Positions 10,511 through 28,992 of a stretch of DNA of 64,000 nucleotides are shown piece by piece. Within the stretch, counting starts at the first letter, position 1; every line of letters starts with the position of its first letter. The translations under genes were made by a program, and so were the position numbers. The notes beneath the pieces were generated by a model that worked only from the letters and a program-made list of their open reading frames with translations, did no database searches and was not told the origin of the DNA. Source of the DNA: Cyanobium sp. WAJ14-Wanaka (GTDB taxonomy: Bacteria > Cyanobacteriota > Cyanobacteriia > PCC-6307 > Cyanobiaceae); the NCBI RefSeq assembly GCF_024345375.1, contig NZ_JAGQAZ010000001.1, positions 964,661-1,028,660 on the forward strand, written 5' to 3'.

Positions 10511-10654
10511 GGAGGGAATCAAGATAATACTCAGAGGAATCATAGACAAACGGGTCGATTTGGTCAGCAATAGCAAGAGATCATGCTGGCATTTCAAAAC
10601 AAAAGCAAAGCTATGCCTGCGGAGAAGATGGCAAAACGCTCAAAGGAGACTAAA

Positions 10655-11572: not shown

Positions 11573-11615
11573 AAAAACTCGACTAGAAACCACATCAAAA
11601 ACAGAGCAATCCTAG

Positions 11616-12605: not shown

Positions 12606-12637
12606 ATATTAGAAAACAGACTCATTGGAATCACAAT

Positions 12638-13498
12638 CTAGTTCCCATAGGCTGGTGTTGAACCTGAAAGCCTAATAATTCTACTGCCGGTATTCCCAAG
12701 CGCCTGGGAATAGGGAACGGCCGTTGAATATGGCATACCAGCGGGGATAGAAGCTGGAGAGGGTGGCCTAAATAAGAATTTGAACTGAAGAGAGCTTCCG
12801 AAACCACTTATATCATCAAAACTTCCTGACAGCGTTGCACTTAAGTTGTGATTAAATCCATAACCAATTTGCAATTGAGCACCTGGGGAAGGGTTAGGTA
12901 CTTCACCAAATAGATAATATGCTCGAGCAGCTCCAGAAAAACCTGGTATACCAAGGGGGAATCCGATTTGTAAATTTGCCGAGGAAACAGCGGATTGCCC
13001 AGAAGCCTGAGCACCGCCGTTTCCTAGGGGGAAAGAGGCCGTAGCAACTAAATTGTAGGAGGGGCGAATTAGCTCACCACCAACTCCGATTTGCTGAAAG
13101 AATGAATTACCAAACCAAGCGACATCATATCCTCCGTTAAAGCCATGATACGAAGAGAGATCACTGCTAAGCTTTCGATAGCCAAACCGTATGCTATTTC
13201 CCCACTGTTTGACAAACCCATTGCTATCAGACCAGGAGTCAGAGGGCTGGGCCTTAGCATAAACAGTATTGTCGAAAAAAGAGAGGCTCTTATCTCCCTT
13301 GATTAGAGGTTGAAAGTGGTTTATCTCTAAACGATTAGAAGAATTTGGCGGTGTCAATGTGAGCTTAGACATCTGAGCAGGTCTTACAAACGCGTTTGTG
13401 AGAGTCTCAGAACTGACTGCTCGAGGCAGAAAGAAAACAAGAAGCAAAAGTAAGACAGGTCCAGAATACACCATGGATAACATAGATGATTTATCCAA
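12638..13498 (-). CDS. secreted protein, predicted outer-membrane beta-barrel
   Basis: This 286-residue protein is not recognised by family. An N-terminal signal peptide (hydrophobic LLLLLVFFLPRAVSS) is followed by alternating aromatic/polar strands such as GNSIRFGYRKL, YDVAWFGNSFFQQIGV and LQIGYGFNHNLSATLSGSF, ending near SSLQFKFLF. This pattern fits an outer-membrane beta-barrel, somewhat like inverse-autotransporter or porin-like barrels. It lies ten bases after the MRJP-like gene and is third in a small operon of secreted proteins. In-frame start alternatives exist within the first nine residues. Confidence 0.5.
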   Translation of the reverse strand: MDKSSMLSMVYSGPVLLLLLVFFLPRAVSSETLTNAFVRPAQMSKLTLTPPNSSNRLEINHFQPLIKGDKSLSFFDNTVYAKAQPSDSWSDSNGFVKQWGNSIRFGYRKLSSDLSSYHGFNGGYDVAWFGNSFFQQIGVGGELIRPSYNLVATASFPLGNGGAQASGQSAVSSANLQIGFPLGIPGFSGAARAYYLFGEVPNPSPGAQLQIGYGFNHNLSATLSGSFDDISGFGSSLQFKFLFRPPSPASIPAGMPYSTAVPYSQALGNTGSRIIRLSGSTPAYGN

Positions 13499-13508
13499 AA
13501 GACTAAAA

Positions 13509-14675
13509 CTAGTTAGGATTTATCTTTACCTTGAAGAGGTGGAAGGGAAACTTAAGTTCAGACTTGCCAGATCTACTATTGCCTGGAAATCTATTAATTT
13601 GGGAAGAGGGGAAATAAAGGTAACCATCTGGCCCAATCCTTGAGGCATCTGGCCAAACTAATATTGAGGCAGGCCCCTTTGAAACAGTCTCGAAACGTCC
13701 GTCAGGAAAACGCCGTTTAATTCCGCCTAACTCTATGTCACTAAAATAAATTGAGCCATCGGAGGCCATCGACATACCGGCATTAAATGGACCAGGACCC
13801 AAGGGTTCAATCGCCTTAGATAGGGTGGCATCAGAAGCATTGAAATCGTTCAGCAAAGTAGTCCTGATACGCATTAAGACAGGGCCACCACTGGGCTGGA
13901 AATAAAAGTACTTTCCATCAACGGAAAGCTCGACAGGGTTCACGCTCATATTCCCATTGGGTAACTGACCATGGGAATTGAGATATGGAACGCCATTTAC
14001 TGTTAATTTTAACCTGCGATTAGAACGCAACCTAGGATCGTCAGCTAGCACCCTCCTTGCAACACCTGTACGCAGGTTGATTACAATCAAAGCACCAAGG
14101 CTAGAATCAGGAAGGTAGGCGTAACCTCCCCCGACCCGAACATCGTTAATAAACCCGCCTAGGGGCAAAACATCAGATCCGAGCCTGTAGACACGAACAA
14201 TTTTGTTGCTAGCCAGATCAATTTGAACAAGCTTCGCCTTGCCAAGAATTGGCTTGCCACCTATGCCAGCGGGGTCAACAACCCAAAGCTGATCACTCGC
14301 ATCAGAGACAACTGAATTTATACCTACAAACTGATCATCACCAGCACCACCGAATTTGTAATTATTCCATCGGCCACCAGGATAGGCACGAATAGATCCA
14401 TCTGAAAGTATCTCGCCGACCGAAGGGGTAGTCGAATCAGAAGTAGCACGTGGCATACTAACGAAAATTCGACCAGCCTTAGAAACTGTGACACCATTCC
14501 ATGGATAGGTAGGCGAAACTGCTACCACAGTTGCTTCGGGCACTAAGCTATCCGAGTTGGATTTAGAGTTAACAGATACACCTGCAACAGGATTAGCCTT
14601 GGGCTCAGACCTGGCTGGCAAAGCCGAGATCGGTAATGCCAGGGCCAAAACTAGGCTCAATCTGTGGAGATTCAT
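13509..14675 (-). CDS. secreted yellow/major royal jelly protein family protein
   Basis: This 388-residue protein has a cleavable signal peptide (LVLALALPISALPARS) and a predicted six-bladed propeller of the MRJP/yellow family. Landmarks are QLWVVDPAG, GGFINDVRV, DSSLGALIVINLRTG and GSIYFSDIELGGI. Bacterial members are uncommon and mostly uncharacterised. It sits four bases downstream of a lactonase-like propeller gene and just before a predicted beta-barrel, so all three products are exported. Role unknown; binding or hydrolysis of a small exported metabolite is a guess. Confidence 0.7.
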   Translation of the reverse strand: MNLHRLSLVLALALPISALPARSEPKANPVAGVSVNSKSNSDSLVPEATVVAVSPTYPWNGVTVSKAGRIFVSMPRATSDSTTPSVGEILSDGSIRAYPGGRWNNYKFGGAGDDQFVGINSVVSDASDQLWVVDPAGIGGKPILGKAKLVQIDLASNKIVRVYRLGSDVLPLGGFINDVRVGGGYAYLPDSSLGALIVINLRTGVARRVLADDPRLRSNRRLKLTVNGVPYLNSHGQLPNGNMSVNPVELSVDGKYFYFQPSGGPVLMRIRTTLLNDFNASDATLSKAIEPLGPGPFNAGMSMASDGSIYFSDIELGGIKRRFPDGRFETVSKGPASILVWPDASRIGPDGYLYFPSSQINRFPGNSRSGKSELKFPFHLFKVKINPN

Positions 14676-14679
14676 AGTT

Positions 14680-15732
14680 TCAAATGTCTAAACGGAACAG
14701 CTTGGTTTCGCCCATAACATAAGCTCCCCCTCCTGGAATCAGGGCGAAATTGCTTACGCCATTAGCTACTGGGATGACAGCCAAGGGATTACCATCCTTG
14801 TCAAAAATCTCCAGACCAGCACCGGTACCTGTCCAAACTCTACCATATTCATCTACCTTTAAGCCATCGGGAATTCCCTTAGTGACCACACAGAAAGTAA
14901 TCCTATCGGTAGCCAATGGCCCGCTTGGTGTCTGCAAAATTCGATACCTGTAAATAGTGCGCGGCAATACACTATTGCGCTGACCATCACCAGCAATAAA
15001 TCCTGAATCGGTAACATATACATACTCCTGATCAAGGCTAAATGCAATACCATTTGGCTTGGAAAAACCATCCATCATCAGGCGTTGATGGCGACCAGCC
15101 TGATCAATTCGCCAGACCCAATTGCCGATGGTGGGCCTAGGCCTAAAACCCTGTTCGTATCCATACTGTGGGTCCGTAAACCAAATAGATTGGTCATTTG
15201 CCTGAACCACATCATTAGGGCTATTGAACTGATAATCGGAAAAACCTGTTGTCAACAATTTGACTTGACCATTAGCAACATTAAACTCTGCCAAGCCTGC
15301 GGACTTAGATTTGTTGCCCTGCATCGTAATCACAAGATTACCATTACTAAGACGAAAAGCCCCATTAGCCATAGGGATAGAATTAGTAAGACCAAGATCG
15401 ACAGTTTTCAATGATTTTAAATCAAATATGGAAGCGATCACATACTGACTACCATCTGAGCGGCGAAGACGATTCGATGTGAAGAAGAGTTGGTTTCGAT
15501 CCGCCAATATCACAGGACCTTCATGGGCTAAAGGCTGGCTATAGGAGGCAAGAACCTTCAACTGCCATTTAGCCAAAGAATGCTCTGCTGCCCTAGCTAC
15601 GCCCCAAAAAACAGTGCTGATAGCAAAAATTGCTGCCAAACTAAGAGCTTTCGGACCGAATGGCAAGCAAGAAAGCGATCTGGTATGCCTGGAAAGCATC
15701 ACCAGATCTCGTCGTGTAGAAGGCGATGGCAT
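14680..15732 (-). CDS. secreted SMP-30/gluconolactonase-like propeller protein
   Basis: This 350-residue protein has an N-terminal hydrophobic export signal ending near VARAAEHS. SMP-30/gluconolactonase blocks appear in order: HEGPVILADRNQLFF (metal-ligand Glu), FNSPNDVVQANDQSIWFTDP (Asn/Asp), KPNGIAF, and PDGLKVDEYGRVW (metal-ligand Asp). The usual metal ligands appear intact, so sugar-lactone hydrolysis outside the cytoplasm is possible. It is first in an apparent operon with the MRJP-like and barrel genes. A 7-bp inverted repeat lies just upstream of the start. An internal ATG at codon 12 could be the real start. Confidence 0.72.
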   Translation of the reverse strand: MPSPSTRRDLVMLSRHTRSLSCLPFGPKALSLAAIFAISTVFWGVARAAEHSLAKWQLKVLASYSQPLAHEGPVILADRNQLFFTSNRLRRSDGSQYVIASIFDLKSLKTVDLGLTNSIPMANGAFRLSNGNLVITMQGNKSKSAGLAEFNVANGQVKLLTTGFSDYQFNSPNDVVQANDQSIWFTDPQYGYEQGFRPRPTIGNWVWRIDQAGRHQRLMMDGFSKPNGIAFSLDQEYVYVTDSGFIAGDGQRNSVLPRTIYRYRILQTPSGPLATDRITFCVVTKGIPDGLKVDEYGRVWTGTGAGLEIFDKDGNPLAVIPVANGVSNFALIPGGGAYVMGETKLFRLDI

Positions 15733-15744
15733 TTCTGGAAAGAC

Positions 15745-15772
15745 AACTCAATCTATTCTAGTCGGTTGAGTT
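15745..15772. promoter_or_regulatory. inverted repeat upstream of the secreted operon
   Basis: A perfect 7-bp inverted repeat, AACTCAA (15745-15751) and TTGAGTT (15766-15772) with a 14-bp spacer, lies 13 bases before the SMP-30-like gene start, between it and the 3' end of glgX. It could be an operator for the secreted trio or a weak end-of-transcript hairpin for glgX. No T-run supports a terminator. Confidence 0.35.
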
Positions 15773-15840
15773 TCTGCTAGCAACATAAGGATGTAAAGAG
15801 AAAAAGGATGGGGAGACAAAACCAGCCAAAGGAAACCTAA

Positions 15841-17907
15841 CTAGGCCTGGTAACAGGATAGAACTCTGATTGATCTGGCAGAAACCTGGCAATCCGAATC
15901 AATAAATCGGGATCCTTTGCCAAATATTGAAATGTCATCGGGAGATGCTTTTGCCGTATCAATCCACTCACGCCAACCAACTGTTGCATCCCCAGCTAGG
16001 GGAGGGACGGGAACCTCAAAGTTAAGGGTTTGCCAATAGGCATTAACCATCAGATGCCAACAAAAACGTCTACAAATACTGATGATCGTAACTGCAAAAG
16101 AGTGGGATTCATCGGACCAATCCGGCTGATCTAATTTCACACCATGCCAACGGAGTTGATTAAGTTGTATGAGGGAATTCAGGGTGTAGTACTGATGCTC
16201 AGAAACAAAGTCTCTATGTTGACGAAAATCAATCAATAAGCTGACAAACCTCCCAAGGTCGGATGATGTCCCAACATTAACCCAATCCATCCAACTGATG
16301 ACTCCATCCTGGCAATAGGCGTTATTATTTCCTGATTGCGAACGACCAATTTCATCGCCCATGCCAATCATGGGCGTACCATTAGAAAGTAGCAGTAATG
16401 TCAAGAAGTTACGCCTTTGCTGAAGACGTAGCCGTAAGACAGAAGGCTCATCCGTGTAGCCTTCGGCGCCGCAATTCCAACTAAAATTATCATTGCTGCC
16501 GTCACGATTAGACTCTAAATTAGACTCGTTGTGCTTAGTGTTATAGGAAACAAGATCCGACAAAGTAAAGCCATCGTGGCAGGTCACAAAATTCACACTG
16601 GATTCTGCGTCCCGATTTTCATACCCATAGATATCAGGGCTGCCAATAAGCCTCTGGGCTACCGACCTAACAAATCCCGAATCACCGCGCAAAAAACGAC
16701 GAACATCATCCCTAAACCTGCCGTTCCACTCCTGCCAATTATCAGCAACAAAGGTGCCTACTTGATAAAGGCCGGCCGCATCCCAAGCCTCAGCAATCAG
16801 CTTAGTTCCAGCTAAAACAGGATCAGTATCAATGTCCCATAGGATAGGGGGCAAAGCAGAGGGCGCTCCAGTTTCATCCCTAGAGAGGACAGAGGCCAGA
16901 TCAAACCTAAAACCATCAACATGCATGTGCTCAACCCAATAGCGCAGGCTATGGCGAATCAAGCGCCTCACTATCGGATTATTAGCATTAAGGGTATTAA
17001 AGCACCCGGTGTAATCCGCATATCCAGCTCCCCCATCCTTAAGCAAGTAATAGTCAGAATTGGCAAGGCCCCGGTAGCAAAATGTTGGGCCATCTGCATC
17101 AGCCTCGGCCGTGTGGTTAAACACCACATCCAAAATCACCTCAATGCCAGCGCGGTGTAGCGCCTTTACGAGGGTACGGAACTCATCAAGGGGCGCCATC
17201 GGTCCCGAACCACTGGAGTAGCCATGGTGGGGAACAAAAAATGATATTGGCTGATAACCCCAGTAATTCGTTAGGCCACCGGGAGCATCAAAGGGGTCAA
17301 ACTGAAAGACCGGTAACAATTCAACGGCCGTAACCCCAAGATCCTGAAGATAGGGAATTTTCTCAATTAAACCCAAATAGGTTCCAGCATTTGGAGCCTC
17401 AACACCGGAACTAGGGTCTGCAGTAAAACCCTTCACATGGAGCTCATAAATAACACTATCACGGCTCGGACGACGCAACGGTTTATCCCCTTCCCAATCG
17501 TAGGCAGCAGGATCGACAACCACACTTTTCATGGAGCGATCAACCAGTTGGCTGGCTGTTCGCCGATAATTTGCGGGCATCACCAGGGCAAGGCCATAGG
17601 GATCTAGGAGCAGATTGTTTACATCAAAGAGCAAACCCCGATCGAGTTCGTAAGGGCCCTCCACCCGGTAGCCGTAAACCTGCCCGGGCGAAAGACCCGC
17701 CACAAAGCAATGCCAATAATGAAAAGTGCGATATTGCTCGCCCTCCAGCCGATACACCTGGCTGGGCTCAACTGCATCGGGGCTGTCAAACAGGCAAAGT
17801 TCTACGGCCGTTGCATCCTTTGAGTAAATACTGAAGTTCACTCCGCCTGATAAAGGAGTGGCACCTAGGGGCGAACTGGAACCAGGGGCAAGGGGGGCAA
17901 ACGCCAT
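15841..17907 (-). CDS. glgX: glycogen debranching enzyme (isoamylase type)
   Basis: This enzyme hydrolyses alpha-1,6 branch points of glycogen, releasing malto-oligosaccharides. It has an N-terminal CBM48-type domain (LGATPLSGGVNFSIYSKDA) followed by a GH13 barrel. Catalytic blocks are DGFRFDLASVL (nucleophile Asp), IAEAWDAAG (acid Glu) and FVTCHDGFTLSDLV (third Asp). The start is taken as ATG at 17907 (MAFAPLAP, 688 residues). The open frame runs to 17982 without conserved sequence. Cyanobacteria often carry more than one glgX, so this may be an accessory copy. Position between lactonase-like and oxidase genes hints at a role in sugar catabolism. Confidence 0.88.
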   Translation of the reverse strand: MAFAPLAPGSSSPLGATPLSGGVNFSIYSKDATAVELCLFDSPDAVEPSQVYRLEGEQYRTFHYWHCFVAGLSPGQVYGYRVEGPYELDRGLLFDVNNLLLDPYGLALVMPANYRRTASQLVDRSMKSVVVDPAAYDWEGDKPLRRPSRDSVIYELHVKGFTADPSSGVEAPNAGTYLGLIEKIPYLQDLGVTAVELLPVFQFDPFDAPGGLTNYWGYQPISFFVPHHGYSSGSGPMAPLDEFRTLVKALHRAGIEVILDVVFNHTAEADADGPTFCYRGLANSDYYLLKDGGAGYADYTGCFNTLNANNPIVRRLIRHSLRYWVEHMHVDGFRFDLASVLSRDETGAPSALPPILWDIDTDPVLAGTKLIAEAWDAAGLYQVGTFVADNWQEWNGRFRDDVRRFLRGDSGFVRSVAQRLIGSPDIYGYENRDAESSVNFVTCHDGFTLSDLVSYNTKHNESNLESNRDGSNDNFSWNCGAEGYTDEPSVLRLRLQQRRNFLTLLLLSNGTPMIGMGDEIGRSQSGNNNAYCQDGVISWMDWVNVGTSSDLGRFVSLLIDFRQHRDFVSEHQYYTLNSLIQLNQLRWHGVKLDQPDWSDESHSFAVTIISICRRFCWHLMVNAYWQTLNFEVPVPPLAGDATVGWREWIDTAKASPDDISIFGKGSRFIDSDCQVSARSIRVLSCYQA

Positions 17908-17984
17908 GACTAGGAAATGGGAAAGCAAAAAACCGGTCGTAGCTGCATCATGGCCGAAAAACCCATTTGGGGTTGCAAACAAAA

Positions 17985-17997
17985 CAGTTCTGAACTG
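17985..17997. promoter_or_regulatory. short palindrome between glgX and doxX
   Basis: CAGTTC-T-GAACTG is a perfect 6+6 bp inverted repeat with a one-base centre. It lies in the divergent region between glgX (minus strand, start 17907) and the DoxX gene (plus strand, start 18036). Its shape would fit a dimeric regulator site. No matching second copy was noticed. Confidence 0.3.
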
Positions 17998-18035
17998 AAA
18001 TACCGGCCTAAGTTGGCGGGAATTGAAAAATCCCA

Positions 18036-18533
18036 GTGGAATTCAACGTTGTAGAAATTTTGGTGCCATCGGTACCCTCTGACCTAGGCCAGGTAGCGCT
18101 TCTGGTATTGCGGGTATTTACGGGGATCTGCTTTATCCGCCACGGCTGGCCGAAGTTGCGCAATCTGAAAACCTGGTCGACGGCGATGAAAACGCCTGCC
18201 TGGCTCTGCTTCCTATCAGCTTTCTCAATGTGGGGTGCAGGCATAGCCCTAATTCCTGGATTCCTAACGCCTCTAGCCGCAATCGCCATTTTTGTGTCGA
18301 TGGCCTACGCAATGGTGCTCGAAATATTTGCGGGCACACCATTCATCGCACCCGATCCCTACCAAATTCCCGAAGGCGACTACGCAGGGCCCATGGGAGT
18401 GGGCGAGCCTCCCAGCTGGGAAAAAGCAGCTATGTATGTGGTGATGTGTCTGGTGCTAGCCACATGTGGAGGCGGCCTCTTTTCGGTAGACAACCTCCTA
18501 ATCGCAGACCTAGTTACAAGCCTGTTGGGCTGA
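18036..18533 (+). CDS. DoxX family membrane protein
   Basis: This 165-residue protein has four hydrophobic helices and the DoxX-type N-terminal pattern LRVFTGICFIRHGWPKL. DoxX-family proteins are small membrane proteins often found beside quinone-linked oxidoreductases; their functions vary. The start is GTG at 18036. A hydrophilic loop (about residues 105-130, rich in Pro and Gly) separates the last two helices, which is unusual for simple four-helix members. It is convergent with the end of the oxidase/GMC operon, with a 12-base gap, so it is not in that operon. Confidence 0.7.
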   Translation: MEFNVVEILVPSVPSDLGQVALLVLRVFTGICFIRHGWPKLRNLKTWSTAMKTPAWLCFLSAFSMWGAGIALIPGFLTPLAAIAIFVSMAYAMVLEIFAGTPFIAPDPYQIPEGDYAGPMGVGEPPSWEKAAMYVVMCLVLATCGGGLFSVDNLLIADLVTSLLG

Positions 18534-18545
18534 AGTTATATAGTT

Positions 18546-20189
18546 CTACAATCTAGCCAACAGATGATCCCCAACACGCAGGGCGTTGGCGATGGCGGTA
18601 AGGGATGGGTTGACCGCGCCAATTGTGGGCATGAAACTGGTATCTACAACGTAAAGGTTATCGAGTTCATGGGCCTTGCAATCAAGGTCCAAAACCGAGC
18701 TTGCTGGGTCCTTGCCAAAACGGCATGTACCGGCCTGGTGCCCGACTGCAGCAATATTCATATCGCTCTTGATATAGAACTGTCGCTCAATAAGATGATT
18801 TTTTAAGTAAAGGCGATCCAGCAGATCGGTCAAACGTCCATAGAGGCGGTGGGCAGCAGTTTGATTATTGAGCGTATAATTCAGCTTGATATCACCATTG
18901 CCATTAACGGTTACTCGGTTTTCAGCAGCGGGGAGATCTTCTGAGGAAATCCAAAAATCAAGGGCATGCTCGGCAATCTTATCCATCGACCAGCCAGGCA
19001 TCAGGAAAGTTTCAAGGGGGGCATAGCCCTTCATGATCGTGCCATTGGTCTTACCGGTCATCTGAATATTACCCATGGGGTAATCAAAATCGGCATCACC
19101 TAGGTACCAATCATTTACAGAAATAGTCTTCTGGAAAGTTGTGGTATTCGGCTCATGGGACAGGGCAACCATTGCCTTACTATTGTGGAACATATAGTTA
19201 CGACCCACCTGGTCAGAGCCATTGGCCAAGCCATTTGGATGCTTGTCGTTGGCCGACATCAGCAGCAAACGCGCACTATTTGCAGCACCACAACTGACCA
19301 CCACCACATCACCACTGACGGTCATGGGGGCGCCATCTCGCTCGAGCTCGACAGATTTAACAGAACGACCAGATGGATCTGTCACCAACCGCTTTACATG
19401 GGCCCGGGTTAGCAGAGATACGTTATGGGCACCCAAAGCAGGTCTGACACCAAGCACTTCCGCATCAGACTTGGCATGCATCAAGCAGGGGAAGCCATCG
19501 CAGCAGTTGCACTTTCGACAACGGCTGAAGGGAAAATTATCCTCATCAAGCATTACCCCAGTGGGAGCATGGAAGGGGTGTAACCCAGCTGAACGAAGAT
19601 CGTCGACGAGCTTCTGAATGCGGGGCTCGTGGGCAATTGGGGGATGGGGATAGGCACTACTGCAGGGTGGTTCGGTGGGATCCTCACCCCGCAGTCCATG
19701 CACGTGGTACATCTGCTCAGCCCGCTGGTAATAGGGCTCAAAGTCGGTATAGCGCAGGGGCCAGGAAGGAGAAATACCATCAAAGTGGACCAACTCCTCA
19801 AAATCCTGTTGGCGCAGGCGGAAGTGGGCCGCGCCATACATTTTTGTAGCGCCACCAACGAAATAGTGGCTGCCAGGTTGAAATGCCTTGCCCTGTTTGT
19901 CGTACCAGGTGTCCTTAGAAACGTAGCGACCCTTCTGAAATACCTCCTCCGCATCCCAGTTCTCGGGCTCCTGGGGTAGCCAATCCCCCCGTTCCAGAAT
20001 CAATATTTTTTTTCCACTGGGTGCCAAATGGCGAGCCAAGGTGCCTCCGCCAGCGCCACTACCGATAATCACCACATCAAAATGGGCGCCATCGGCCACC
20101 TCCAGCTGACGTGCCTCAGGCAAAGGTGAGATGGCCATGGAAGGCCCAGGCAAAGCAGCGTTGTTTTGATGGATAGCCATGGTGAACAA
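18546..20189 (-). CDS. GMC-type FAD oxidoreductase with intact catalytic pair and Cys cluster
   Basis: This glucose-methanol-choline family flavoprotein is 547 residues long and has no signal peptide, so it is probably cytoplasmic or peripheral. FAD-binding fold VVIIGSGAGGGTLARHL is near residue 40, and the C-terminal catalytic pair is present: His484 in HQAGTCRFG and Asn527 in AVNPSLT. A cysteine-rich segment (Cys224, 227, 229, 230 and 235, in CRKCNCC..FPC) resembles the Cys-rich region of gluconate/fructose dehydrogenase-type GMC enzymes and may hold a metal or Fe-S centre. It likely oxidises a sugar or polyol. It is the last gene of the oxidase operon. A shorter start a few codons in (ATG at codon 4) is possible. 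Confidence 0.85.
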   Translation of the reverse strand: MFTMAIHQNNAALPGPSMAISPLPEARQLEVADGAHFDVVIIGSGAGGGTLARHLAPSGKKILILERGDWLPQEPENWDAEEVFQKGRYVSKDTWYDKQGKAFQPGSHYFVGGATKMYGAAHFRLRQQDFEELVHFDGISPSWPLRYTDFEPYYQRAEQMYHVHGLRGEDPTEPPCSSAYPHPPIAHEPRIQKLVDDLRSAGLHPFHAPTGVMLDEDNFPFSRCRKCNCCDGFPCLMHAKSDAEVLGVRPALGAHNVSLLTRAHVKRLVTDPSGRSVKSVELERDGAPMTVSGDVVVVSCGAANSARLLLMSANDKHPNGLANGSDQVGRNYMFHNSKAMVALSHEPNTTTFQKTISVNDWYLGDADFDYPMGNIQMTGKTNGTIMKGYAPLETFLMPGWSMDKIAEHALDFWISSEDLPAAENRVTVNGNGDIKLNYTLNNQTAAHRLYGRLTDLLDRLYLKNHLIERQFYIKSDMNIAAVGHQAGTCRFGKDPASSVLDLDCKAHELDNLYVVDTSFMPTIGAVNPSLTAIANALRVGDHLLARL

Positions 20190-20210: not shown

Positions 20211-22904
20211 CTACCCATTCGGGTAACGGTTCAATTGTGTAATCATCTTGGCCACCATCGCTGTCCAGCCTGTCTGGTGGGAAGCCCCCATGCCTCGCCC
20301 ATGGTCGCCATGAAAATATTCGTTAAAGGCAATTAGGTCACGCCAGTGGGGATCTTCCTGAAACAGCTGAACATCACCATTAAAAGGCCTCTGGCCATCT
20401 TGATTTCTAGTAAAGATGCTTACCAGGCGTTTCTCTAATTCAAGGGAGGCCTCCCAGAGATTAATCCAATTGCCAGAGCGTGCAGGAAACTCAACCTTGA
20501 AATTGTCGCCATAGAAGTGGGCATATTTCTGCAAGGACTCAATTATAAGAAAATTAAGTGGCATCCAGACTGGGCCGCGCCAATTCGAATTGCCGCCAAA
20601 CATGCCGACAGGGCTATCCCCGGGGCTATAGGCCAGCCGCTCACTATCAGCACCCTCCGTAAATGAATAGGGATCTGATTCATATACTTTTGAAAGCCCC
20701 CTGATGCCATAGGGTGAAAGGAACTCTTCTTCATCAAACAGACGTTCACAGATCCTTCGGAGACGATCCATGGGTACGAGGGTAAATAAGAGGCGATCGT
20801 TATTCCATTTGCCTAAATTGTGCTCAAGCCAGGTAGGGGAAGTGCGCTCATGCACAAACCAAGCCAAACTACTTTTAACATCTAACACTGGCAAACGATC
20901 GACTGTCTCACGATCAAAGCTGGATACGGCGAGCATGGGGATTAAGCCGGACAGGGAGCGGGTCCGCAGATAGGCAGAACTTCCATCTGGACGCTTGAGA
21001 ACATCGTAGTAAAAACCATCATCCTCATCCCAATTTACGAATCCATGGGCAGACTGGGAAGCCGGCGAATTGAGAGTGATTGCCAGTAGAGAAAAATCAT
21101 AAACAAAACGCTCACAAATGTCACAATATCCTGGAACATCCTTACTTAACTCTACCGCTATATTTAACATATTAAGGCTCAGCGATGCCATCCATGCAGT
21201 GCCATCGCACTGTTCGATTCGGCTACCATCGCGAAGCGGGAAACGGCGATCAAAAACAGCAATATTGTCCAGCCCTAGAAAGCCTCCATCAAAAATGTTG
21301 TCACCATCCCTAGCATTTCGGTTAGCCCACCAACCATATTCCAAGAGCAGCTTGCGCATTGATGAGGCGAGGAACATCGTGTCCCGGTTGCCGGTTTGCC
21401 TTTCTTCAATTTGGAAAATTCGCATGGCCGCCCATGCCCCAATGGGAGGATTGGGATCGGATAATGCCCATTCATAGGCAGGGGTTTGGGCGGTAGGATT
21501 GGTGTAATGGGGAGAGCGCAAAAGCATGCACTGAGTCTTTGCAGTTGCGGGATCAAGAGTGGCAAATGCAACGGCATGGAACATTAAATCCCATTGGCAA
21601 AAATAGGGATATTCCCAAGCATCTGGCATCGAAATAACCTGATGGGCATGGAGACGATCCCACCTGGCTGTTTCCGTAAACCTTCGCCCTTCAGGCGGCT
21701 TTTCTTGGGTGGGATCACCCTCTAACCATCTACCAACACTCCAGCCGTAGTATTTTTTGCACCAAAGCAACCCGGCCAATGCCGTGTTATGGATCAAGCT
21801 TTGATCACCAGAAAGGCCAGGGGTGCAGTATTCATTGAATTCTTGGCACTCTTTCTCCCTGGCAAAGAAGATATTGTCAAATTCCACTCCAAAGGGTTCA
21901 TCGGTATGGTCGCAAGGCCTCAAACGCAGTTCCAGGCACCACTCCTCGCCAGGAGCGAGTGTTCGCTGTAATAGGCAAGCCGCTTTTGTTCCATTTTGAT
22001 CTGGATTAATAGCCCCATGCTCAGAGCCAATCAAGAAGCGATGGAATCCATCTTTCTGGTAAGGAGTGGTATTCGGCTGATTAAAAAGTCTTTGATAATT
22101 AGTTTCGTTATCAGTAAACAACCACTGGCCAGTCTCCTTACACAAAAGCTCGCATGCCGGCAAATCAGCGAGCTGGGGGATTAATACACGATCATTCTCA
22201 AGCGACATAGGCTTACGAACCTCGCCTGGATAACCCCATGCCCAAGTGTTGCGAAGCCAAACGGTAGGCAAAAGATGTATCGGAGCTGGATCAGGCCCTC
22301 GGTTAACCGCACGAATCCTGATCAAAATGTCTGTAGATGATGCCTTTGCATACTCTATAAAGACATCAAAATAACGATTTTGATCGAAGGTTCCGGTATC
22401 TACAAGTTCAAATTCAGGCACATCACGGCCACGCCTGCCATTCTCCTCGAGCAAATGCTGATAGGGAAATGCGGCCTGGGGATACTTATACAAGCCCCGC
22501 ATGAAGCTGTGGGTTGGCGTATTATCAATATGAAAGTAGTAGTCTTTAATGTCCTCTCCGTGGTTACCCTCCTGATTGGCAAGGCCGAATGGACGCTCCT
22601 TCAGAATTGGGTCAACACCATTCCAGAGGGCCAATGAAAAACAGAGGCGACATTGCTCGTCGCAGATTCCCAGCAATCCATCTTCTCCCCAGCGATAAAC
22701 ACGGGAGCGGGCATGGTCATGGGGGAAGGAACTCCAGGCGTCACCGTCGGCCGAATAATCCTCCCTAACCGTGCCCCATTGGCGCTCAGGCAGATAGCTG
22801 CCCCATAGGGACCAGGGCTCTAGGCCCTGGTCCCGTTCTGAAATACGCTGCAACTCCGCAGGCATCGAGCCCTGATCAATGGATTGAGTGGGAGAAGATG
22901 TCAT
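20211..22904 (-). CDS. GH63-type (MGH1-like) glycosidase
   Basis: This 897-residue protein has no signal peptide, so it acts in the cytoplasm. It resembles cytoplasmic GH63/mannosyl-oligosaccharide-glucosidase-like enzymes: an N-terminal beta-rich domain, then an (alpha/alpha)6 barrel containing WDLMFHAVAFATLDP (family acidic residue in a WD motif) and NWRGPVWMPLNFLI near residue 795. Bacterial GH63 proteins cleave alpha-glucosides or compatible solutes such as mannosylglycerate; the substrate cannot be fixed here. It lies between two GMC flavoprotein genes with gaps of only 4 and 21 bases, so it may release the sugar that they oxidise. Confidence 0.8.
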   Translation of the reverse strand: MTSSPTQSIDQGSMPAELQRISERDQGLEPWSLWGSYLPERQWGTVREDYSADGDAWSSFPHDHARSRVYRWGEDGLLGICDEQCRLCFSLALWNGVDPILKERPFGLANQEGNHGEDIKDYYFHIDNTPTHSFMRGLYKYPQAAFPYQHLLEENGRRGRDVPEFELVDTGTFDQNRYFDVFIEYAKASSTDILIRIRAVNRGPDPAPIHLLPTVWLRNTWAWGYPGEVRKPMSLENDRVLIPQLADLPACELLCKETGQWLFTDNETNYQRLFNQPNTTPYQKDGFHRFLIGSEHGAINPDQNGTKAACLLQRTLAPGEEWCLELRLRPCDHTDEPFGVEFDNIFFAREKECQEFNEYCTPGLSGDQSLIHNTALAGLLWCKKYYGWSVGRWLEGDPTQEKPPEGRRFTETARWDRLHAHQVISMPDAWEYPYFCQWDLMFHAVAFATLDPATAKTQCMLLRSPHYTNPTAQTPAYEWALSDPNPPIGAWAAMRIFQIEERQTGNRDTMFLASSMRKLLLEYGWWANRNARDGDNIFDGGFLGLDNIAVFDRRFPLRDGSRIEQCDGTAWMASLSLNMLNIAVELSKDVPGYCDICERFVYDFSLLAITLNSPASQSAHGFVNWDEDDGFYYDVLKRPDGSSAYLRTRSLSGLIPMLAVSSFDRETVDRLPVLDVKSSLAWFVHERTSPTWLEHNLGKWNNDRLLFTLVPMDRLRRICERLFDEEEFLSPYGIRGLSKVYESDPYSFTEGADSERLAYSPGDSPVGMFGGNSNWRGPVWMPLNFLIIESLQKYAHFYGDNFKVEFPARSGNWINLWEASLELEKRLVSIFTRNQDGQRPFNGDVQLFQEDPHWRDLIAFNEYFHGDHGRGMGASHQTGWTAMVAKMITQLNRYPNG

Positions 22905-22908
22905 CAGA

Positions 22909-24453
22909 TTAGGATTTGAAAAGGGAAGCCTTCAGGGATTCAGCTATACGCATGGCATTGGCGATGACCGTGAGGCCAGGCCCCACCGCAGGGCAACTGG
23001 GGAAGAGGCTGGCATCAGCAATAGTGAGGTTGGCTAGTTCATGGCAGCGGCCGTCGAGGCCAACAACGGCAGTGGCCGGGTTATCTCCCATTCGGCAGGT
23101 GCCACAGGCGTAGCCCACCGCCGAAAGGGGAGCCTCACCACGGGGATGGGTGGGAGCCGCACTAACCACATGGGTGAGGGGATCTGCCTCCACCTCCTTG
23201 AGGGTGTCGATCCAGCGGTAGATCAGACGGTCATGGGCCTCACGGTTGTTGTGCACATAGTTGAGCTGGATACGATCACCGCGCAGGCTGACCCGGTTGT
23301 GGCGATCCGGCAACACTGGGCTGAGGGCCCACCAGGTAACTGAACGGGCTGCCAGCTGCTCGAGGCCCATGTTGGGTAGCAACTTGGTAACCAGGGAGAG
23401 CACCGGCGGCGATTCCGCAAACAGGGCATCCTGCAGAACTCCGCCCCCGTTCTGGATTGAACCCAGGGGGAAGCTCACATTTTTGTCACCCCAGAGGTAG
23501 TCGTTTACACCCAAACTGCGGGGGTAGCGGCCGTTATTTGGCTTTGCCGCCAGCTGAATAATTGAAGTGAGCTGGGGATGCATAAGGTTGCGACCCACCT
23601 GGTCTGAACCATTGGCCAATCCCCGGGGATGCTGGTCGCTGGCGGAGCGCAACAAAATCGCCGCCGTATTGATGGCACCAGCCGCCAACACCACCTGATG
23701 CCCCTGAAAGAGCCAGCTCTGGCCATCAATCAGGGCCTCCACACCCCGCACCTCATTACCGCTGGGGTTGACATGGAGGGAGCGCACATCGGCGCCCGTT
23801 CGAATCGTGATTGCCCCATCCTGCCCTTGGGAACCAGGGCCAGATCGGGCCAGGTCAACCCCAAAAAGCTCGGCATCACCAGAGGGATCCTGGGGCGAAT
23901 CAGACCAACTAATTGGCAGGTCATAGGGATTGGTGCCATGGCGCTGCAGCGCCGAGCGCAGCTCCTCCATGAAGGGCTCAATCGGCTTTGGCGCCTGGGC
24001 AAAGTCGTGGCTGCGGGCCGGTTCGGTCGGATCAATTCCGGCACGGCCATGCACGCAATAACGTGCCTCGGCCTGCCAGTACCAGGGGGCCAGGTCGTCG
24101 TAGGTCAGTCCCCAGGCAGGGGCATGACTTGCCTGCAGAGCAAGCCCGCCAAACTCCCGCTCCCGCATCCGCTCAAGCACCCCACCCCAAATCTTGGTGT
24201 TACCGCCAAGGGCATAGATGGCCTGGGGGGAAAAGGGATCCCCATCGGTGCCAAACCACTGCTCCTTCGGGTGGTAACGATCCTTTCTAAAAAGGCCCAC
24301 ATCGGCCACGTTTTGATCCTCGGCAGGCATTTGCCCACCCCGCTCCAAAAGCAAGACCTTGAGACCGGAGCCCACCAATTGGGCAACGAAGGTGCCCCCG
24401 GCAGCACCGCTGCCAACCACGATCACGTCATAGCTGATGTCGTCGATAATCAC
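22909..24453 (-). CDS. GMC-type flavoprotein lacking the catalytic His/Asn pair
   Basis: This 514-residue paralogue of the operon's last gene has a good FAD-binding fold (IVVGSGAAGGTFVAQL) and matching landmarks (LANGSDQVGRN, LTVIANAMRIAE). The residue aligned with the catalytic His is Tyr448 (YACGTCRMG), and the Asn position is Gly491 (AVGPGLT). The Cys-rich segment of the paralogue is also missing; ISWSDSPQDPSGDAELFG stands in its place. It may have a different chemistry, be a regulatory or electron-transfer partner of its paralogue, or be catalytically dead. No signal peptide is seen. It is 43 bases downstream of the oxidase subunit III gene. Confidence 0.82.
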   Translation of the reverse strand: MIIDDISYDVIVVGSGAAGGTFVAQLVGSGLKVLLLERGGQMPAEDQNVADVGLFRKDRYHPKEQWFGTDGDPFSPQAIYALGGNTKIWGGVLERMREREFGGLALQASHAPAWGLTYDDLAPWYWQAEARYCVHGRAGIDPTEPARSHDFAQAPKPIEPFMEELRSALQRHGTNPYDLPISWSDSPQDPSGDAELFGVDLARSGPGSQGQDGAITIRTGADVRSLHVNPSGNEVRGVEALIDGQSWLFQGHQVVLAAGAINTAAILLRSASDQHPRGLANGSDQVGRNLMHPQLTSIIQLAAKPNNGRYPRSLGVNDYLWGDKNVSFPLGSIQNGGGVLQDALFAESPPVLSLVTKLLPNMGLEQLAARSVTWWALSPVLPDRHNRVSLRGDRIQLNYVHNNREAHDRLIYRWIDTLKEVEADPLTHVVSAAPTHPRGEAPLSAVGYACGTCRMGDNPATAVVGLDGRCHELANLTIADASLFPSCPAVGPGLTVIANAMRIAESLKASLFKS

Positions 24454-24496: not shown

Positions 24497-25099
24497 TCAT
24501 TGCCACAAATAGATCAAGATAAATAGAACAATCCAGATCACATCAACAAAATGCCAGAAAAGCGAAGTGGCTTCTACCCCCTGCTCACCTTTTTCGTAGT
24601 TTCCAGGTAGAAAAGATTTGACCAACATCAGACCCATCAAGCCAATGCCCGTGGCAACGTGCAGGCCGTGGAAACCAGTAAGCAAGTAGAAGGTGCCACC
24701 GAAGGTGCCGGAGGTAAACCCAAACTCCAGCCCACTCCACTCCACGTACTGGCCGTAGAGGAAATAGGCCCCCATGGCCATGGACAAAAGCCAAAAACCG
24801 CGGAAGAGGGCAAGATTTTCCTTGGCCTTAAAACGCTCTGCCAAGTAGATGGTGCCACTACTTGAAACCAAAACGATTGTATTTATCAAGGGCATGTGCA
24901 CATCCAGCCCCGCCACCCCGGGCGGCAACCAGTTCAGGGCACTGGTTTTCAACACTGCATAACCGCTAAAGAAAGCCAGGAAAATTACGCTCTCGGAGCA
25001 CAGAAAAATAATAAAGCCCGTCAGATTATGCTTTTTCTCGTCATGGGGCTGGGGTTGGGGCTCGACAATTAGGGAGCTTGGCGGTGTAGTGAAAGTCAT
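24497..25099 (-). CDS. ctaE: haem-copper oxidase subunit III
   Basis: This 200-residue membrane protein has the subunit III core of about five helices. Blocks are IIFLCSESVIFLAFFSGYA, YLLTGFHGLHVATGIGLMGL and SLFWHFVDVIWIVLFILIYLW, the last being the family C-terminal signature. It contributes to the stability of the terminal oxidase in the membrane. It lies four bases after subunit I. Since subunit II lacks CuA, this belongs to the alternative (ARTO-like) oxidase set. Confidence 0.92.
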   Translation of the reverse strand: MTFTTPPSSLIVEPQPQPHDEKKHNLTGFIIFLCSESVIFLAFFSGYAVLKTSALNWLPPGVAGLDVHMPLINTIVLVSSSGTIYLAERFKAKENLALFRGFWLLSMAMGAYFLYGQYVEWSGLEFGFTSGTFGGTFYLLTGFHGLHVATGIGLMGLMLVKSFLPGNYEKGEQGVEATSLFWHFVDVIWIVLFILIYLWQ

Positions 25100-25102
25100 T
25101 GC

Positions 25103-26770
25103 TTAGTTCTCCTTGAGGGCCTGTTCGTAGGCCGCCTGGTTTTCCACCAGCGGCAGCCCACTGCCATAGCCATAGGGGCGGGAAATAACAGTGGGCACAA
25201 AGTCGCCAAAGTTGTCTTCATGGGGAGGGGAAGGCAACAGCCACTCAAGGCCAATGGCATTCCAAGGATTGGCGGGGGCCTTTTCTCCCCGAACCCAGGA
25301 GCTAATCATGTTGAGAAGGAAGGGAATAATCGAAACCCCCAGCAGGAAGGCCCCCAGGCTGGCGAGCACGTTCCAGAAGGCAAACTCCGGGTCGTAGGAA
25401 GAAACCCTCCTGGGCATACCCATCAAACCGAGGGGATGCATGGGCAGAAAATTGAGGTTTGCGCCAATGAAGGTCAGGGCAAAGTGCAGCTTGCCCAGCC
25501 CTTCGTAGGGCATGCGGCCCGTGAACTTGGGAAACCAGTGGTAGATGGCGGCGAAAATGCCCATAACGGCGGCGCCATAGATCACGTAGTGGAAGTGACC
25601 AACCACGAAATAGGTATTACTTACGTGGATGTCGATCGGCACTGTGGCCAGCATGATCCCGGTGATACCGGCAAAAACAAAATTAAATAAGCCCCCCAGA
25701 CAAAACAACATTGGCGTCGTTAGGCGAAGCTTGCCTCGCCAAATAGTGCCAAGCCAAGCAAAAACTTTCACCCCCGTTGGCACGGCGATCAACATCGTGG
25801 AGAACATGAAGAAGTTGCGCATCCACTGGGCCACCCCACTGGGGAAAATGTGGTGAACCCAAACAATCAGCCCCAGGAAGTCGATAATGAAAGAAGCCAA
25901 CGCCACGTAAACGTAGCCGAATAGGGGCTTGCGAGAGTAAACGGGGAAAAGCTCGGAAAAGATTCCGAATACGGGCAGAATGATTACATAGACAGCAGGG
26001 TGGGAATAGAACCAAAAGAAGTGCTGGTAAAGCACTGGGTCTCCACCACCCTCGGCCCGGTAAAAGCTTGTGCCAAAACTGAGGTCCATCAACAACATCA
26101 GCGCCCCGCCCGTGAGGGCAGGCAGGCCCACAAGTTGCAGACATTGGGCCGCAAGGGCTGTCCAGCAAAAAATAGGCATCTTGAACAGACCCATCCCCGG
26201 AGCCCGCATCCTCAAGATTGTGGTCACAAAATTAATGGCGCCCATGATCGAGGAGACGCCAGACAGGGCAACGGCCGTAATCCAAAGGCCCTGGCCATTG
26301 ACGAACGTGCCAATGGGGTTCTGGATACTTACGGGCGGAAATGACCACCAGCCCGAATAGGCAGGGCCGCCAGGTACGAAAAAGCTGGAAATAAGTAGGG
26401 TGCCAAAAATTGGCACCAGCCAAAAAGCCACCGCGTTCAGCCTGGGGAAGGCCATGTCCGGTGCCCCAATCATCGTTGGGATCAATAGGTTGTTGAGACC
26501 ATTGAGCACGGGGAAAATGAACAGGAACAACATGATTGTTCCGTGCATCGTGTAGATGCCGTTGTATACGGACCTATCAACCAGGTCGGATGCCGGGGTG
26601 ATCAGCTCACCACGAATAATCATGGCCAGCAGGCCACCGATTAGGAAATAGAAGAAGGCCAGCACGATGTACTGGATGCCAATGACCTTCGCGTCGGTGT
26701 TAAAGCTGAAGTAGCGCTTCCAGGAACCCTGCTCAGGCTGAAAATTTTCGCTAAATGTTGCTGAGGTCAT
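25103..26770 (-). CDS. ctaD: haem-copper oxidase subunit I (A2-type)
   Basis: This is the catalytic subunit that reduces O2 to water, 555 residues long with about twelve transmembrane helices. Haem and CuB ligands are visible: His in YTMHGTIM, the HPAVY pair (CuB His and cross-linked Tyr), the HH pair in VWVHHIFPSG, and HFHYV. The segment before the HPxVY motif reads FYSHPAVY. That is the Tyr-Ser form of A2-type oxidases, which replaces the Glu of mitochondrial-like A1 enzymes. It lies three bases after subunit II and should form an ARTO-like terminal oxidase with it. Confidence 0.93.
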   Translation of the reverse strand: MTSATFSENFQPEQGSWKRYFSFNTDAKVIGIQYIVLAFFYFLIGGLLAMIIRGELITPASDLVDRSVYNGIYTMHGTIMLFLFIFPVLNGLNNLLIPTMIGAPDMAFPRLNAVAFWLVPIFGTLLISSFFVPGGPAYSGWWSFPPVSIQNPIGTFVNGQGLWITAVALSGVSSIMGAINFVTTILRMRAPGMGLFKMPIFCWTALAAQCLQLVGLPALTGGALMLLMDLSFGTSFYRAEGGGDPVLYQHFFWFYSHPAVYVIILPVFGIFSELFPVYSRKPLFGYVYVALASFIIDFLGLIVWVHHIFPSGVAQWMRNFFMFSTMLIAVPTGVKVFAWLGTIWRGKLRLTTPMLFCLGGLFNFVFAGITGIMLATVPIDIHVSNTYFVVGHFHYVIYGAAVMGIFAAIYHWFPKFTGRMPYEGLGKLHFALTFIGANLNFLPMHPLGLMGMPRRVSSYDPEFAFWNVLASLGAFLLGVSIIPFLLNMISSWVRGEKAPANPWNAIGLEWLLPSPPHEDNFGDFVPTVISRPYGYGSGLPLVENQAAYEQALKEN

Positions 26771-26773
26771 GGG

Positions 26774-27721
26774 TCAGGCGTCGTGCGGCAGGGTGTTGGA
26801 GCCAGGAACATTCACTTGGGGAGGTGGGGCAGGCGGCACGGTTGCCCAGCCTGGATTTTTAAGCTTTTTGCGGGCCTCATACTGGCCGACGGCATCACTT
26901 AGGCCCGGCTGCAGTGGCTGGGTTGCAGCATTCTTAAGCCAGGCCTTATAGGTCTCTTCACTTTCCACCACCACATCCGCCTGGTTAGCGGCAAACCAGG
27001 TGCCACTGAATTGGGAATCCCTGAGGCGATAGCGACCTTCCCGGGTTGGGGTGATATTGAAATTAATGGCCCGGCCAGGAATTAGATCTTGCTTTAGGCG
27101 AAAAGCGGGGATAAAGAAACCATGGATCACGTCTTCCGATACCAGACGCAGGGTCACCGGCTGATCAACGGCCAAATGCAGTTCGCTGGATGAGACATGG
27201 TCCTGGGGATAGCGGAATTCCCAAGACCATTGCCTGGAGATCACCTCGACCTGCTCCGTGGGCAAGCGATCTCCTGCAAAGCCCCCCTGCTCTTCCCTCG
27301 CATCGGCCATGTGGATGTGCTCCATGGGGCCAAGCACTCCCAAGGTGGTGTTAACCCGCATGGCATAGACCGCAATGGCCATAACCACCACCAGCGGAAT
27401 CACCGTCCAAATCACCTCTAGCCGGGTGTTGCCCTCAATCGGCACCGCATCGCTCTCGTCGTACTTATCGGCGCGGTGCATCACCACCACCCAAAGCATT
27501 ACGGCAACCACGGCGCCAAATACAAAGGTGCCGAGGGCGGTCTCAAAGCTGAACAGGCCATCCACCAGCGGGGCGGCGGTGGAGGCCTGGACGGGCATCC
27601 AGTGGTAAGCCTGTTGGCCCATCCACCAGCTTGCTGCCACCAGGGCCACAACGGAGATGGCCAAAGCCACCAACTCTGGCTTCGTTATCGGGGAAGACTT
27701 GGGTCCGCTGGGGTTGGTCAT
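26774..27721 (-). CDS. ctaC: oxidase subunit II without a CuA site (ARTO-like)
   Basis: This 315-residue protein has two N-terminal transmembrane helices and a C-terminal cupredoxin domain. The first CuA histidine region is present (EDVIHGFFIPAFR, His200). In the later ligand loop the residues expected to be Cys, Glu, Cys, His and Met are Asp235, Gln237, Ser239, Phe243 and Asn246. The copper A centre therefore cannot form, and cytochrome c or plastocyanin is an unlikely donor. This is the known pattern of the cyanobacterial alternative respiratory terminal oxidase, thought to use quinol or another donor. It overlaps the upstream DUF2231 gene by four bases. Confidence 0.9.
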   Translation of the reverse strand: MTNPSGPKSSPITKPELVALAISVVALVAASWWMGQQAYHWMPVQASTAAPLVDGLFSFETALGTFVFGAVVAVMLWVVVMHRADKYDESDAVPIEGNTRLEVIWTVIPLVVVMAIAVYAMRVNTTLGVLGPMEHIHMADAREEQGGFAGDRLPTEQVEVISRQWSWEFRYPQDHVSSSELHLAVDQPVTLRLVSEDVIHGFFIPAFRLKQDLIPGRAINFNITPTREGRYRLRDSQFSGTWFAANQADVVVESEETYKAWLKNAATQPLQPGLSDAVGQYEARKKLKNPGWATVPPAPPPQVNVPGSNTLPHDA

Positions 27722-28344
27722 GGCAGGGCCTCCTTGAGATCTGCACCGGCCGCCAGCAACTGATCAGCGGTGATGTGCACGCCAAATTCGGCGGCCAGTT
27801 CGGCACCAAGCGTGCCGTGTAAGCCAATGACCAAAAACATCCCCATGCCCACGAGCAGATAGAGCCACTGGACCTGGCGGCCCATGTCCTTGCGCCAAAC
27901 AAACCTTTGATAGCCCCGCCAAACCGTCATGGCGATGATCACCAACAGGATCAGCACGCCACCCACTCCATGCCAAAGCATGGTTTCCATGCTTTGCAAG
28001 CCGATCGAACTGGTCACCCCGGGCAGGGGCACCGCCAGGAGCATCTCAAAGAAACCGGCCGCCACGGTAAAAAAACTAAAAATGGCGCAGGCCAGCAGGT
28101 TGTACCAACCCACATCGTGGAAACCCTGGCGGGTAATGGGCAGGGCCAGGAAGCGAAACACCCGCTTCTCAACCGGATATAGGGCCCCGGCAATATCAAA
28201 GGCAACTGCAATTACAAACAAACCAATGGTGAGGTGCACCAGGTTGGGATGGATCGGCAGGCTGTAGGGCAAGCCATTGGCCCCGAGGTCACCGGCAAGC
28301 TGGTGAATGGGGGAATCGGTGGGGATAAAGGAGCTGGCCATCAC
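27718..28344 (-). CDS. DUF2231 membrane protein (second of pair)
   Basis: This 208-residue predicted four-helix membrane protein belongs to the DUF2231 family. Histidines lie at His32 and His37 (IHPNLVH), His125 (WHGVGG) and His176 (GLHGTLG), all in or at helices. The paired pattern would suit b-type haem ligation, but this is not proven. It starts within the stop of the upstream DUF2231 gene (GTGATG over TGA) and overlaps the oxidase subunit II gene, so the three should be co-translated. A role as electron donor or membrane anchor for the CuA-less oxidase is a reasonable inference. Confidence 0.75.
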   Translation of the reverse strand: MMASSFIPTDSPIHQLAGDLGANGLPYSLPIHPNLVHLTIGLFVIAVAFDIAGALYPVEKRVFRFLALPITRQGFHDVGWYNLLACAIFSFFTVAAGFFEMLLAVPLPGVTSSIGLQSMETMLWHGVGGVLILLVIIAMTVWRGYQRFVWRKDMGRQVQWLYLLVGMGMFLVIGLHGTLGAELAAEFGVHITADQLLAAGADLKEALP

Positions 28345-28838
28345 ACCAAACCTGCCCGCATCGCCTCAACCACCTTGACGGTGTGGAGACCGTAGACCCA
28401 AATCAATTGGTTGCCCAGGCTCACCTGCAGCACGATCAGGGCACTCAGCAGTCCGCCGGCCCCGAGGAAACTCAAGGGCAATTGCTGGGGGTCCCGGCTG
28501 CGAATCACGTATCTCCAGGCCGACATCAGCGACAAAACTCCCGCCAGCGACCAGCCGATCGTGGTGTGCAAGTTGAGAATTTCGCTGGATTTGCCATAGG
28601 GATCGGCGAGTCCGGCCTCCACCTGGCCAAAAATGATTGCCACAAAGATGGCCGTGGTGGCAAATAGCAAATTCCAGAAGCTGACTTCAAAAAGAGCCGG
28701 CTTCTTTGCCAAGGTGCCAATCAGATCGAAAACGAAGGCGATCAACCCCATCGCGATAACAAAGTGCACCACGATTGGATGGAGGGTATCCATCCAGGGC
28801 AGGTTGTGGTCGTTGAGCGGTGGTAAAAACTCGAGCAT
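28341..28838 (-). CDS. DUF2231 membrane protein (first of pair)
   Basis: This 165-residue protein begins at ATG 28838 (MLEFLPPLND). The open frame continues to 28976, but the upstream part has no resemblance to the family. The histidine pattern matches its neighbour: His20 and His25 (LHPIVVH, same five-residue spacing), His91 (NLHTTIG) and His152 (GLHTVKV). It is the first gene of the eight-gene oxidase operon, so the operon promoter should lie between 28839 and 28990. The family has no settled biochemical role. Confidence 0.75.
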   Translation of the reverse strand: MLEFLPPLNDHNLPWMDTLHPIVVHFVIAMGLIAFVFDLIGTLAKKPALFEVSFWNLLFATTAIFVAIIFGQVEAGLADPYGKSSEILNLHTTIGWSLAGVLSLMSAWRYVIRSRDPQQLPLSFLGAGGLLSALIVLQVSLGNQLIWVYGLHTVKVVEAMRAGLV

Positions 28839-28970
28839 GGAAGCCCTGATCCATCCAGACCAAATAATGGCCGAAGCGATCAGGGACCCCGCCGGTATGT
28901 GAAGTTCTGCCCTGTAAATGTGCTCATTCGCCCATGCAACCCTGGCCCCGTGGGTTGCCCCTAAGCTCGC

Positions 28971-28992
28971 CACCAATTGCCCTTAATTGGTG
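28971..28992. promoter_or_regulatory. perfect 8-bp inverted repeat in the divergent region
   Basis: CACCAATT (28971-28978) and AATTGGTG (28985-28992) form a perfect inverted repeat with a 6-bp spacer. It lies between the oxidase operon (minus strand) and the HdeD-family gene (plus strand). The right arm contains both possible start codons of the HdeD gene, TTG at 28987 and GTG at 28990. It could be an operator for divergent control or a hairpin hiding the start codon. Confidence 0.45.

Follow-up and report, generated by a model that had tools for sequence, protein, structure and literature searches.

Background

In alcohol oxidation by GMC flavoproteins, a His/Asn pair supplies the base and its hydrogen-bond partner. 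The closest solved folds and sequences to the protein described here, further referred to as GMC1, are the large subunit of fructose dehydrogenase (7w2j/9jqa) and the alpha subunit of Burkholderia FAD-glucose dehydrogenase (6a2u). Both are flavin subunits that feed respiratory chains, and both have His and Asn at the positions corresponding to 448 and 491 of GMC1 as well as a Cys-rich Fe-S region, whereas GMC1 has neither feature.

The alternative respiratory terminal oxidase, ARTO (ctaC-D-E-II), is found in many cyanobacteria, and a role in iron uptake, where it would reduce ferric iron, has been suggested for it; in biochemical terms, ARTO is characterized by oxidation of plastoquinol and reduction of O2 or Fe(III). 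Synechocystis that has lost ARTO reportedly shows lower ferric reduction (cited in PMC7676907). The descriptions of ARTO in the papers examined mention no GMC flavoprotein, whereas GMC1 adjoins the ARTO genes of the locus analyzed here. Our literature search, outside of which most subscription journals lay, found nothing relevant on a link of ARTO with either GMC or DUF2231 proteins.

Other GMC proteins depart from simple alcohol oxidation. MftG, the mycofactocin dehydrogenase, links its donor to the respiratory chain (PMC11778925) and thus sets a precedent for a GMC protein serving respiration. Although MftG is the best NCBIfam match of GMC1, the score is far below the cut-off (61.5 bits vs 387); in addition, MftG keeps the active-site His411 that GMC1 lacks, and the neighbors of GMC1 are ARTO rather than mycofactocin genes. 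Fatty acid photodecarboxylase (FAP) combines the GMC fold with non-alcohol chemistry, and a protonated His close to its flavin is unlikely (PMC12448124); residues R451, C432, and Y466 have been described for it (PMC11664916). In contrast to GMC1, FAP is algal, light-driven, and has no link to an oxidase, and the 2 proteins show no special closeness in sequence.

Gene organization of the locus

The window, i.e., the whole analyzed stretch of 64,000 nucleotides from Cyanobium sp. WAJ14-Wanaka, contains GMC1 along with the features listed in Table 1. GMC1 has the Rossmann GxGxxG FAD motif and both GMC domains, PF00732 (GMC_oxred_N, 24.7 bits with a cut-off of 23) and PF05199 (GMC_oxred_C, 56.1 bits with a cut-off of 24.6), and shows neither a signal peptide nor a strong membrane segment. 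The alignment with its paralogue GMC2 (36% identity) confirms the numbering and residues given in the initial annotation, in which Tyr448 and Gly491 stand in place of His484 and Asn527; the active-site His and Asn/His pair of the superfamily is therefore missing from GMC1. The Cys-rich Fe-S motif of FAD-GDH/FDH-type enzymes is absent as well, again as annotated, with the loop removed by a deletion of ~24 residues relative to GMC2. As for the 5 clustered Cys initially reported for GMC2 (224, 227, 229, 230, and 235), all are present there, but only 4 are conserved among its relatives (224, 227, 230, and 235; C-x2-C-x2-C-x4-C), position 229 being occupied by C, T, S, or R. By analogy with FAD-glucose dehydrogenase, this four-Cys motif would fit a metal or Fe-S site.

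Table 1. Coordinates of GMC1 and neighboring features within the window
Feature	Position	Strand	Length or basis
GMC1, ARTO-linked GMC-fold flavoprotein without catalytic His/Asn	22909..24453	-	GTG start, 514 aa
Tyr448 codon (GMC catalytic His position)	23110..23112	-	Alignment to GMC2
Gly491 codon (GMC catalytic Asn position)	22981..22983	-	Alignment to GMC2
GMC2, sugar-dehydrogenase-like paralogue with His484/Asn527 and Cys cluster	18546..20189	-	547 aa
GMC2 Cys cluster, residues 224-235, deleted in GMC1	19485..19520	-	
MGH1/GH63-like glycoside hydrolase of the adjoining sugar module, outside the conserved ARTO cassette	20211..22904	-	Pfam
cox3-type subunit III of ARTO-type oxidase, directly upstream of GMC1	24497..25099	-	Pfam COX3, synteny
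cox1-type subunit I of ARTO-type oxidase	25103..26770	-	Pfam COX1; second, canonical copy in genome
cox2-type subunit II without CuA cysteines (quinol-oxidase/ARTO type)	26774..27721	-	Pfam COX2
DUF2231 membrane protein a	27718..28344	-	Pfam; H32, H37, H125 invariant, H190 in 86/87
DUF2231 membrane protein b	28341..28976	-	Pfam; H66, H71, H137, H198 invariant

GMC1 is the last gene of an ARTO oxidase operon with the order DUF2231b-DUF2231a-cox2-cox1-cox3-GMC1, in which adjacent genes overlap or are separated by at most 44 bases; this spacing, together with synteny, suggests that they are co-transcribed. At the level of the genes, the cassette resembles the described ARTO in that it encodes heme-copper subunits I-III with a subunit II devoid of CuA ligands and is second to a canonical oxidase. 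The CuA motif occurs in none of the 87 ARTO-type cox2 homologues, while C-x3-C-x3-H is present in the canonical cox2 encoded elsewhere in the Cyanobium genome analyzed. The same order of the cassette is found across the class and on plasmids of Nostoc edaphicum and Trichormus variabilis (Anabaena variabilis).

In the cassettes examined, the DUF2231 pair precedes the CuA-less cox2, and each DUF2231 protein has 4 invariant or nearly invariant His, 2 of them within HPxxxH. This conservation suggests the pair as candidates for haem b binding; neither protein has a sequence match among PDB structures.

Linkage between GMC1 and ARTO

Among GMC1 loci with enough flanking sequence, cox3 lies immediately upstream in 73 out of 77. 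The neighbors of the remaining 4 loci, situated away from cox3, give no common hint. According to the presence of both genes in 291 genomes of the class, GMC1 occurs together with an ARTO-type cox2 in 125 genomes and alone in 5, while ARTO alone is present in 27 and neither in 134 (Fisher p 1e-47, uncorrected for kinship). Of the 5 GMC1-only genomes, 2 (G038 and G116) have cox1/cox3 adjoining GMC1 and are thus fragment or threshold cases. Many of the 27 ARTO-only genomes come from a single family (f32), and their existence implies that ARTO as such does not depend on GMC1. The window's own family is divided between 18 genomes with both and 26 with neither. Overall, the ARTO operon with GMC1 is found in about half of the sampled cyanobacterial genomes. 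Scans of viral contigs did not find GMC1 relatives.

On the Nostoc and Anabaena variabilis plasmids (L167 and L168), cytochrome bd genes follow the ARTO-GMC cassette, feoB/feoC lie close by, and a BlaI/M56 peptidase pair is located upstream; L168 also has a TonB receptor close by. Cyanobium sp. FGCU6 carries 2 GMC1 copies (L062 and L075) on one contig, ~11 kb apart, one of which is followed by the glycoside hydrolase and GMC2 and has an apparently short C-terminus (residues 1-480 only).

Loss of the catalytic site

Conservation was assessed in 109 distinct cyanobacterial GMC1 proteins, collected from 43 public-genome loci and from genomes across the class. At position 491 these have Gly (71), Ser (36), Pro (1), or a gap (1), and none has Asn. 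Position 448 is more diverse, being occupied by Tyr in 58 proteins, Asn in 21, His in 14, Gly in 5, Phe in 4, Ser, Ala, and Leu in 2 each, and Gln in 1. Both His and Asn are kept in all 36 GMC2 proteins (L137 not counted), a difference that chance does not account for. Thus, the initial claim that both catalytic residues are lost holds throughout for Asn but only in part for His, which persists in 14 of the 109. In this set, Asn loss is universal, with His either retained or regained in one sub-clade.

Site 448 ranks 405th of 514 in variability, while the adjoining motif CGTCR-G is nearly invariant. Such freedom to vary is expected once a catalytic base is no longer needed. At the 95% level, no column is fixed differently between GMC1 and GMC2, so that a diagnostic replacement residue did not emerge. 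In contrast to the catalytic pair, other residues are strictly maintained: G14, G16, G19, and E37 are invariant in an alignment of 30 rows, and D480 is present in 109/109 homologues.

The reading frames are uninterrupted, and dN/dS estimates lie at ~0.06-0.17; in comparisons involving the window, synonymous changes approach saturation, which makes the lower-divergence pairs the safer guide. The missing catalytic residues could in principle reflect decay of an ordinary GMC gene in one strain, which the initial annotation proposed to check by aligning homologues. With clade-wide substitutions, intact frames, dN/dS of ~0.1, and a conserved cassette, this explanation is ruled out with near certainty. 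Having lost the pair on which the established mechanism depends, GMC1 should not perform classical GMC alcohol oxidation. It would fit the definition of a pseudoenzyme, since the predicted fold is kept, catalytic loss extends across the clade, and the gene is under purifying selection.

Predicted structure

The structural model of GMC1, built from 40 sequences including GMC2 rows, has pLDDT of 80.5 and pTM of 0.88, with weak regions at 48-59 and 338-357; a model from GMC1 orthologues alone reached pLDDT of only 51.6 and was not used. Thus, as predicted, the FAD/GMC fold that the initial annotation described as intact is retained, and GMC1 is predicted to bind FAD. Over ~470 residues the model matches the large subunit of fructose dehydrogenase with Z of 41 and the alpha subunit of FAD-glucose dehydrogenase with Z of 36. 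The nearest folds of the modeled protein are thus FAD dehydrogenase subunits linked to the respiratory chain.

The model also matches the FAP structure 5ncc (Z 33.9), and the hosts of GMC1 are phototrophic. Together with the His-less flavin environment of FAP, this may be read as a sign that GMC1 is a light-driven photoenzyme or photoreceptor of the FAP kind. We consider this highly improbable: 5ncc is ranked only 34th, i.e., FAP is no closer than other GMC proteins, and its algal origin and lack of association with oxidases also speak against the idea.

Evolutionary history

The tree was obtained with a short search and SH-aLRT support, without bootstraps, and was rooted with GMC2-like proteins of other bacteria, as the other GMC protein of the same genome (L004) is too distant. 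In this tree, the ARTO-linked GMC proteins form a single clade (SH-aLRT 100) nested among dehydrogenases having His and Asn. It requires 1 change for the loss of Asn491, 4 changes for His448, and 2 for the Cys cluster. The earliest branches are L137 and the plasmid copies L167 and L168, which have Asn/Ser at the 2 catalytic positions and a full Cys cluster; all 3 lie within ARTO cassettes, the L137 GMC gene at 7872-9485 of its locus. Based on its sequence, the L137 protein appears to be an evolutionary intermediate, this intermediate grade being represented by 3 sequences. The tree and these early branches imply that loss of the catalytic pair accompanied or closely followed the arrival of the gene in the ARTO operon, and that the Cys loop disappeared next. 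Tyr/Gly is the state found in most picocyanobacteria.

GMC2 and the adjoining sugar module

Downstream of GMC1, the window contains the glycoside hydrolase, GMC2, DoxX, and glgX genes, as well as genes that we take to be SMP-30-like, VOC, and SDR, naming them by reading their sequences rather than by family search. Positions 9704-20189 form a stretch of lower GC with SDR, VOC, SMP-30-like, glgX, DoxX, and GMC2 genes and the glycoside hydrolase; on plasmids of rhizobia, Azospirillum, and Nostoc, the same gene set surrounds GMC2-like genes, and the stretch looks like a mobile sugar-oxidation module. GMC2 relatives on Azospirillum, Mesorhizobium, and Nostoc plasmids keep His and Asn and are accompanied by SDR, VOC, SMP-30/gluconolactonase, DoxX, and glycosidase genes.

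The initial annotation regarded GMC1 and GMC2 as a catalytic/non-catalytic pair, which would suggest that the 2 proteins form a heterodimer. Indeed, among 29 loci from picocyanobacteria, 21 have GMC2 no more than 6 kb away from GMC1. Elsewhere, however, this arrangement occurs only once (L118) and GMC2 is absent from that distance in the other 26 of 27 loci, 3 near-complete genomes (G019, G054, and G059) have GMC1 but no GMC2-like gene, and in other bacteria GMC2-like genes sit with DoxX, gluconolactonase, and glycoside-hydrolase genes. The rarity of GMC2 near GMC1 outside picocyanobacteria and the genomes having GMC1 without GMC2 make a functional pair unlikely, and GMC1 instead travels with ARTO. 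GMC2, a chance neighbor of GMC1, is a dehydrogenase in its own right, with the catalytic residues in place. In L118, which lies outside picocyanobacteria, ARTO-GMC1 is followed by a GMC2; the 2 modules may have come together on several occasions.

Discussion

On balance, we favor, with somewhat better than even confidence, the reading in which GMC1 is an accessory flavoprotein of ARTO that has abandoned GMC alcohol-oxidation chemistry and acts at the quinol oxidase by transferring or sensing electrons. Sequence, synteny, and the tree place its origin in a single recruitment, to the ARTO operon, of a sugar-dehydrogenase-like GMC enzyme of the Fe-S type. The catalytic Asn was lost, usually together with His, and later the Cys loop, with the FAD-binding core staying under purifying selection. 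Most likely, GMC1 is soluble, carries FAD, and sits at the cytoplasmic face of the oxidase or of its DUF2231 membrane partners, from where it could deliver electrons to the quinol/oxidase system, draw them from it, or sense its redox state. It might thus serve ARTO as an electron relay, a regulator, or an assembly partner, probably along with both DUF2231 proteins. The feoB/feoC and TonB receptor genes in the plasmid context and the ferric-reduction defect of the ARTO mutant make ferric reduction a possible role.

Some of the same observations are consistent with GMC1 still being an enzyme that acts on its own substrate by chemistry independent of the His/Asn base, using ARTO as an electron sink; examples include reduction of quinone, ferric iron, or a small molecule at FAD, as well as an isomerase-type reaction. 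Purifying selection has preserved the FAD core along with a large part of the pocket, His is kept in some members, feoB and cytochrome bd genes lie beside the plasmid cassettes, and the reported Synechocystis defect also fits. However, position 448 varies among Y, N, H, G, F, S, A, L, and Q, so no single replacement could act as a conserved base, and no substrate is indicated. We regard continued catalysis of this kind as possible, but considerably less probable than not.

A bolder version of the accessory role regards GMC1 as a flavin subunit dedicated to the heme-copper quinol oxidase, which together with the 2 DUF2231 putative haem proteins and CtaC/D/E-II would provide an entry or exit for electrons, e.g., to ferric iron. 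We put this forward as speculation that is rather doubtful at present. To our knowledge, no respiratory complex with such an architecture of GMC flavin protein, DUF2231, and CtaC/D/E-II has been described.

The ordered series of recruitment with Asn loss, loss of the Cys cluster, and appearance of Tyr/Gly represents an oxidoreductase turning into something else. For organisms bearing GMC1, the name "GMC family oxidoreductase" used in the annotated records examined would mislead metabolic models. As a flavoprotein co-encoded in most genomes with ARTO, GMC1 is an obvious and testable candidate for a missing ARTO component.
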